NCBI GenBank assembly: GCA_902533795.1
Contig: CACAND010000001.1
Location: 324,732 to 388,731 of the forward strand
Source of the DNA: an uncultured Candidatus Actinomarina sp.
GTDB lineage: Bacteria > Actinomycetota > Acidimicrobiia > Actinomarinales > Actinomarinaceae
Reading direction: 5' to 3'
DNA: 64,000 nt
Shown: positions 1-1,406 of the stretch, one piece after another
Layout: each line of letters opens with the position of its first letter
Numbering within the stretch: the stretch's first letter is position 1
Program-made: the position numbers and the translations under genes
Notes under the pieces: generated by a model
Told to the model about the DNA's origin: nothing
Database searches by the model: none
What the model saw: the letters and a program-made list of their open reading frames with translations, nothing else

Positions 1-279
1 ATCAGTTAAATCAATTATTGAATTATATGGTTCAGAGATAAGCATCAATTTGAATCTGTCAATTGGACCTGTAACTTCCTTATTATCTTTATGAGCATTG
101 TCCCAAATAATTTCCACAGATTTATCTGGATCTTTAGAAAAGTTTTGATAACTTTCCATAATTTCAACCAATATCTCTTCTGGCTCTCTTATTTCTATAG
201 ATTGAGCAGCAGGCTCTGATTGATTACAAGTAATAAATAGTAAGGAAATTATAAAAAATTTTAAACTTTTTCTAACCAC
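1..279 (-). CDS. putative lipoprotein, N-terminal part (truncated by window edge)
   Basis: Reading the minus strand from GTG at 279: VVRKSLKFFIISLLFITCNQSEPAAQSIEIREPEEILVEIMESYQNFSKDPDKS...; signal peptide with lipobox-like LFITC; open to the window edge. Confidence 0.7.
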   Translation of the reverse strand, partial: MVRKSLKFFIISLLFITCNQSEPAAQSIEIREPEEILVEIMESYQNFSKDPDKSVEIIWDNAHKDNKEVTGPIDRFKLMLISEPYNSIIDLTD

Positions 280-367
280 GAAATACTAAAGTTACCACCA
301 AATAAAGATGCAATAAAAATGTTAGAAATATAAAAGACCAGAAAAGTCTTTTTTCTAATTTACTCAC
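272..367 (-). CDS. 31-aa single-TM small protein, paralogue of 364-471
   Basis: GTG start; V(M)SKLEKRLFWSFIFLTFLLHLYLVVTLVFRG*. Start overlaps the stop of the upstream small ORF; stop overlaps the start of the lipoprotein. Confidence 0.6.
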   Translation of the reverse strand: MSKLEKRLFWSFIFLTFLLHLYLVVTLVFRG

Positions 368-471
368 AACGAGATTGTGAGAAGCCCCATTGAATCAATT
401 ACTAGGTACATATGTAATACAAAAGCTACACCCATAAAACTCCAGAAGGTACGTTTTTCTAATCTACTCAC
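364..471 (-). CDS. 35-aa single-TM small protein, paralogue of 272-367
   Basis: GTG start; V(M)SRLEKRTFWSFMGVAFVLHMYLVIDSMGLLTISL*; shares the MS(K/R)LEKRxFWSF...LHxYLV pattern with the next ORF. Confidence 0.6.
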   Translation of the reverse strand: MSRLEKRTFWSFMGVAFVLHMYLVIDSMGLLTISL

Positions 472-511
472 AGTTGAATCCTAGTAATAATAAAAAGTTT
501 TACCTAATTAG

Positions 512-670
512 TTACTCTTGGTTTGCTCTTTCATATGCTTGGCTGTACAAAATTAATGTAGGAGCCCATAATCCAATATATATTGCAAGTTGTGAGTCAT
601 CCAAAACAACGTAAATAATTACAGATGCAACAACGGAAACAATACTTGCGTATAAACCTAATTTTATCAT
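512..670 (-). CDS. 52-aa small membrane protein, unknown function
   Basis: ATG start; MIKLGLYASIVSVVASVIIYVVLDDSQLAIYIGLWAPTLILYSQAYERANQE*; two hydrophobic segments. Confidence 0.55.
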   Translation of the reverse strand: MIKLGLYASIVSVVASVIIYVVLDDSQLAIYIGLWAPTLILYSQAYERANQE

Positions 671-724: not shown

Positions 725-868
725 ATGATTGAAACATTAACATCAAATCCATTAACGTTAGTCCTTATATTCCCTGTAGTGACGTTGACAATATTCGTTG
801 TTGGGATAATTAGGATGGATATTGCTAAATTTAATCAAAAACATGTTTTTGTCACTGAAGAAGAGTAA
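725..868 (+). CDS. 47-aa small single-TM protein, unknown function
   Basis: ATG start; MIETLTSNPLTLVLIFPVVTLTIFVVGIIRMDIAKFNQKHVFVTEEE*. Confidence 0.5.
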   Translation: MIETLTSNPLTLVLIFPVVTLTIFVVGIIRMDIAKFNQKHVFVTEEE

Positions 869-905: not shown

Positions 906-1406
906 ATGGACCTTAATAATATTGAAAACTTGGAAGATGTAGAGCTTTTTGATCTTCAAAATCAAATCACCGAAATTATAAAAAAAAGAAATCTTGAAAA
1001 GGGAGATATTGAAGAAATAATAGATAATTCATTCAACATAGGTTTTCCAAAAATTGATGGTGTTGGACTCAACCCATGGATTGATAATTCTTTAATTATT
1101 TGTCCTGGAGCAAGAATTGATAAAACTAAAACTCGTCATATTTGTAAGTTTATAGTCATTGACGAAGAGTGGTCTTGGGAGTCGCCTCATATGATAAGTG
1201 ATGTAATTAGAAGAGACCAATCGTCTAAAAATTTTAGACAACACTCTATTACTTTAATCTCTCCTTTTGAAGGGATGAAGGTTCAGGTAATATCTCAGAA
1301 ATCGCAACAAGGCAAACATCTTGTTGAAGGAGTCGATTCATTTGAATTTAGAAATGGAAAGTTAGAAAAAACAATGACCAAAACCTCTAGGTCTAGAGAT
1401 CACTGA
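906..1406 (+). CDS. hypothetical protein
   Basis: 166-aa ORF in an otherwise unexplained gap; no family recognised. Confidence 0.6.
   Translation: MDLNNIENLEDVELFDLQNQITEIIKKRNLEKGDIEEIIDNSFNIGFPKIDGVGLNPWIDNSLIICPGARIDKTKTRHICKFIVIDEEWSWESPHMISDVIRRDQSSKNFRQHSITLISPFEGMKVQVISQKSQQGKHLVEGVDSFEFRNGKLEKTMTKTSRSRDH

Follow-up and report, generated by a model that had tools for sequence, protein, structure and literature searches.

A clade-specific tandem pair of conserved single-helix microproteins beside a lipoprotein gene in Candidatus Actinomarina

At one edge of the window, the 64,000-nucleotide stretch of DNA analysed here, two very short GTG-started reading frames (copies A and B) run head to tail into a lipoprotein gene. 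The locus raises the question of whether frames of this size are genes at all, how the pair arose and what its products might do. The source contig spans 389 kb, with a GC content of 32%, and belongs to a genome of 0.98 Mb; its close relatives among named records are uncultured Candidatus Actinomarina, which bears out the marine actinobacterial host suggested in a preliminary description of the locus. That description had also reported the two frames and a lipoprotein start at 279 as a series of overlapping GTG-started genes, and all three were found as described (Table 1). A and B overlap by 4 nt (GTGA) and B and the lipoprotein gene by 8 nt, and the DNA repeat reported across the pair is likewise present, ending at 368 and 472 if the shared final A is counted. 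Because the median intergenic spacer in this order is about 2 bp (PMC7771536), gene overlaps are unremarkable here in themselves. The GTGA overlap of A and B is identical in all nine genomes that carry both copies.

Table 1. Coordinates of the features of the locus and of related sites (window positions unless a locus or genome label is given).
Feature	Position	Strand	Detail
Lipoprotein, NTF2-like / DUF4864-like (assigned with caution), GTG start at 279	1..279, truncated by window edge	-	
Lipoprotein, whole gene in host contig	L002:4815-5279	-	154 aa
Copy B, 31-aa paralogue of A, GTG start	367-272	-	MSKLEKRLFWSFIFLTFLLHLYLVVTLVFRG
Copy A, 35-aa single-helix membrane protein, GTG start	364..471	-	MSRLEKRTFWSFMGVAFVLHMYLVIDSMGLLTISL
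-10-like hexamer TAGGAT (TANNNT)	478..483	-	ends 6 nt before GTG of A
-35-like hexamer TTAGGT	502..507	-	18-nt spacer to -10
52-aa two-helix membrane protein, GIFVGLWxP family	512..670	-	next gene upstream of A
47-aa one-helix membrane protein, divergently transcribed	725..868	+	same module
166-aa protein	906-1406		
GIFVGLWVPSI family loci	window 512-670; L128-L139, L152-L181		
Distant copies of the 47-aa protein	G025:C2, G032:C11, G009:C4, G004:C8, G003:C12, G020:C6, G034:C1, G018:C4		
Empty site	L094/L095 around 1461-1501 (G019, G008)		

Of the proteins encoded around the block, the 166-aa protein shows strong conservation within the genus, distant members retaining 75% identity, and had no Pfam or NCBIfam match. 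On the other side, the region adjoining the lipoprotein gene (L002:858-4826) holds an apparent MacA/MacB-like efflux set of membrane-fusion protein, ABC ATPase and permease, as well as a gene for a 210-aa protein with two CMREEG...FPDP repeats, which converges on the lipoprotein gene with a 12-nt overlap.

We identified relatives of A and B in 30 of 42 Actinomarina genomes using a family profile (E=1e-14 to 1e-19); nine carry the tandem pair and 21 a single copy, and A as query also recovers B in its own genome (E=1e-6). Within-group pN/pS lies at 0.12-0.19 (A, 0.187 in nine genomes; B, 0.124 in nine genomes; single-copy clade, 0.16 over codons 2-28 of 13 sequences), and none of 200 column shuffles gave values as low. 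Other frames mostly exceeded 0.7, with the other forward frames at 0.8-4.6; the -1 reverse frame was lowish (0.34-0.37), as expected because its third positions align. The preliminary description had predicted both conservation beyond this genome and codon-structured substitutions, and both hold. Judged by this pattern of conservation, A and B are genuine conserved genes of Candidatus Actinomarina. That they are spurious frames and the repeat a non-coding duplication, as extreme brevity, GTG starts and an AT-rich genome might suggest, is already refuted at the level of sequence comparison by the third codon positions, which hold most changes (10, 5 and 26 variable columns of A at codon positions 1, 2 and 3), by the conserved start and overlaps, and by the presence of the gene in 30 genomes.

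Outside the genus, a search of the class (296 genomes) gave only matches with E >0.06 and no relatives of A or B, so that function cannot be transferred from a homologue. Comparison with Pfam, NCBIfam, PHROGs and PDB returned nothing usable, the JTB and phrog matches being weak and apparently compositional, and profile comparison gave no support for kinship with the 47-aa protein.

The AlphaFold2 model of A is one continuous helix (residues 3-34, mean pLDDT 90). Both proteins combine a basic N-terminus (MSKLEKR), aromatic residues (FW/FF) at the edge of the membrane and a single transmembrane helix bearing an invariant F..H.YL motif. Besides the start, the residues K6, F9, F12, F17, H20, Y22 and L23 are invariant in all A, B and single copies. 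The positive-inside rule relates a basic N-terminus to an N-inside orientation, and on this basis the N-terminus of A and B is predicted to face the cytoplasm.

We compared the 60 nt that precede the leading copy, or the only one, in 27 genomes, all but three deep ones. Exactly five columns are invariant (-36T, -35T, -12T, -11A and -7T), and these positions are hallmarks of a sigma-70-type promoter (TT..., an 18-nt spacer and TANNNT). The TANNNT ends 6 nt before the GTG or ATG in 27 of 27 genomes, within the distance of about 6-9 nt typical of leaderless genes, and this would place the transcription start at or beside the start codon. No conserved purine-rich Shine-Dalgarno motif was found 5-10 nt upstream, an AGGA-like sequence occurring in one subclade only. 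Leaderless genes are common in Actinobacteria (PMC3160421), and in mycobacteria a GTG or ATG at the 5' end of the mRNA is sufficient for leaderless translation (PMC4633059); the mRNA of A is likewise predicted to be leaderless. As a control, we examined 205 first-in-operon genes of the host contig: 49 have a TANNNT with a 6-nt gap, against a baseline of about 10 at most of the gaps from 10 to 29 nt. This genome-wide peak at 6 nt points to leaderless transcription being widespread in Candidatus Actinomarina. A would then be expressed from its own promoter, with the GTG itself as predicted start point, and B and the lipoprotein would be translated by coupling through the overlapping stop and start codons. 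The arrangement resembles that of mycobacterial leaderless small proteins (PMC4633059), in which a small GTG or ATG frame at the predicted start point feeds an overlapping gene. It differs in that the Actinomarina start point is deduced from sequence conservation only, and in that the peptide forms a conserved membrane helix and has a paralogue in tandem.

The resemblance of A to B had been explained by duplication in tandem of a gene for a small membrane protein, next to the lipoprotein gene. This is correct, with the refinement that the single-copy state is the commoner one and the pair marks one clade. In a tree of the lipoprotein and 52-aa proteins, the two-copy genomes occupy one side of a single branch with 100/100 support, and a tree of the neighbouring 166-aa protein recovers the same split at 97/96. 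In the tree of the small genes, which is indicative only because the sequences are short, A copies and B copies group apart (79/87 and 93/99), and a long branch of 1.39 changes per site leads to the B clade. The duplication thus happened once, in the ancestor of the nine-genome clade, long enough ago for strong divergence of B, and both copies have been constrained since. The gene just before the lipoprotein is B in the two-copy clade and the single copy elsewhere. One ancestral 31-aa Actinomarina gene would have given rise to A and B by this clade-specific event, after which B may have specialised for one partner and A may have kept the ancestral role. The idea that the promoter was co-duplicated and became the C-terminal tail of A was rejected, local alignments of the upstream regions being no better than shuffles (p 0.06-0.63).

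Conservation extends beyond the pair to its neighbours. In the genomes read, the gene order is the divergent 47-aa gene, the 52-aa gene, one or two small genes and the lipoprotein gene, so the proposed adjacency of the small genes to the lipoprotein proved to be conserved; the 52-aa gene lies directly upstream of A or of the single copy in the genomes examined. Twelve of the 42 Actinomarina genomes lack the small protein. Two of these (G008 and G019) have long contigs that cover an intact syntenic site, where just about 40 nt lie between the flanking genes for the 210-aa and 166-aa proteins, so that the lipoprotein, small, 52-aa and 47-aa genes are all absent: the empty site is clean, with the whole module of about 1.1 kb missing. 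Both genomes lie beside carriers in the 166-aa tree, which favours loss (support modest, 83-93). In a third (G026), the lipoprotein gene is at a contig edge. The remaining nine non-carriers also lack the 166-aa neighbour and are therefore probably incomplete in this region; their completeness is 69-90%. The 52-aa and 47-aa proteins belong to one module with A, B and the lipoprotein, inherited as a block. Three genomes (G013, G014 and G060) keep the trio of 47-aa, 52-aa and small genes in another setting without the lipoprotein; it is dispensable to the trio there, and a complex including it would not be obligatory. The 47-aa protein also recurs as a second, distant copy elsewhere in eight relatives (31 residues matched, E about 1e-10).

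For the lipoprotein, Cys18 is invariant in 14 diverse relatives at the end of the hydrophobic stretch, in the lipobox region, and lipid attachment is predicted. Its AlphaFold2 model (pLDDT 85.5) has five short helices followed by a four-stranded sheet (H-H-H-H-H-E-E-E-E). Eight of the 14 relatives match DUF4864 (PF16156) weakly (best E=0.0018), and Foldseek returned weak matches to MlaC/Ttg2D-type and NTF2-like proteins. The helix-then-sheet model and these weak sequence and structure matches may liken the protein to DUF4864 and NTF2-like proteins. Against this, the window's own lipoprotein has no Pfam match, not reaching the gathering threshold for DUF4864 / NTF2-like families, and Foldseek TM-scores stay below 0.5, at 0.3-0.45 for the NTF2-like folds. 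With caution, we regard it as NTF2-like.

The 52-aa protein reaches further. A profile built from Actinomarina 52-aa proteins alone has weak yet convincing matches in other Acidimicrobiia (E down to 1e-6); these relatives share a GIFVGLWVPSI segment, and the alignment has invariant columns S, SV, I, G, W and P. By its profile match and invariant G-x-W-x-P segment the window's protein is a member of this family, which a mixed profile detects in 42 of 297 genomes of the phylum. Matches of the 52-aa protein to choline-binding (TIGR03414) and DUF2061 models fell far below cut-off. GIFVGLWVPSI proteins apparently form a small membrane protein family across Actinobacteriota that has no existing name. 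In most of the loci from Acidimicrobiia and their relatives, several other families among them, a small one-helix frame (MSE.VIF..G...F) directly follows the 52-aa relative, and the two usually overlap by 4 nt. A second group of loci of the family (AIFVGLWAPTIL) is mostly without such a partner. The Actinomarina locus shares with this hairpin unit the upstream 52-aa family member and the short single-helix gene directly after it. In place of the 4-nt overlap it has 40 nt between the two genes, with a promoter; it adds the lipoprotein and the duplication, and its small gene has no detectable homology to the partner frame. A and B match that frame (MSE.VIF.xG..) in position, but profile comparison gave an hhalign probability of 0.1%, and we do not claim homology.

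The most likely role of A and B is as accessory helices in a small envelope complex, a reading supported by three features: the genes of the block are inherited together, a hairpin protein is encoded alongside, and one face of the helix is constrained. In this small membrane complex the helices would be accessory or assembly subunits; their partners would be the 52-aa helical hairpin, the NTF2-like lipoprotein on the extracytoplasmic side and, probably, the 47-aa protein. On balance, we favour the view that A and B are translated single-pass membrane microproteins that arose by clade-specific duplication, with A leaderless, and act as accessory helices of an envelope complex. A wider proposal is more tentative: the locus may encode an envelope module of three micro membrane proteins and an NTF2-like lipoprotein, with a core of hairpin and overlapping one-helix partner that is old in Actinobacteriota and a one-helix subunit that was duplicated and specialised in one clade even though the genome is extremely streamlined.

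Three other functional readings rank below this one, in the order coupling leader, redox subunit, toxin-like peptide. A and B could be leader or coupling peptides that bring ribosomes to the lipoprotein start, their products doing little. They do precede and overlap that start, and mycobacteria commonly have leaderless short frames that feed the genes after them (PMC4633059). What makes this unlikely is the strong constraint on the amino-acid sequence itself, with its seven invariant residues, together with the retention of the gene in the three genomes without a downstream lipoprotein and the presence of a second constrained copy, which would be superfluous for coupling.

The invariance of H20 and Y22 in all copies would suit small helical subunits of a respiratory or redox complex, in which the membrane His or Tyr is functional, for example as a heme ligand, and two genes away (1436-2677) lies a gene for what we take, from its sequence, to be an NADH dehydrogenase-like flavoprotein. 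That gene is on the opposite strand, however, and outside the block lost as a unit, A and B resemble no subunit in Pfam, NCBIfam or PDB, and one His per helix is no proof of heme binding; we consider this role improbable. A and B might also be a pair of small hydrophobic toxins or bacteriocin-like peptides, to which the lipoprotein or the 52-aa protein would confer immunity. Short peptides with a cationic N-terminus, one hydrophobic helix and membrane-protein neighbours would fit, but this reading is very improbable: the position is stable throughout the genus, selection is purifying and not diversifying, neither mobile nor antitoxin features occur, and the viral contigs searched gave no relatives.

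A and B belong to a kind already known, that of short, leaderless, conserved membrane proteins. Genes so short, GTG-started and leaderless are easily missed in annotation, and the open reading frame track of the window omitted both; comparative evidence alone fixes the genes, their start codon and their promoter. Few known bacterial genomes are as streamlined and as poor in paralogues as this one, and 44 paralogues were reported for a 1.1 Mb genome of the order (PMC7771536). The surprise is that a tandem paralogous pair is retained, under selection, in a genome otherwise so poor in paralogues. Beyond the pair itself, the locus brings to light a two-gene unit of small membrane proteins, unnamed and present across the phylum, whose function is testable in cultivable actinobacteria.
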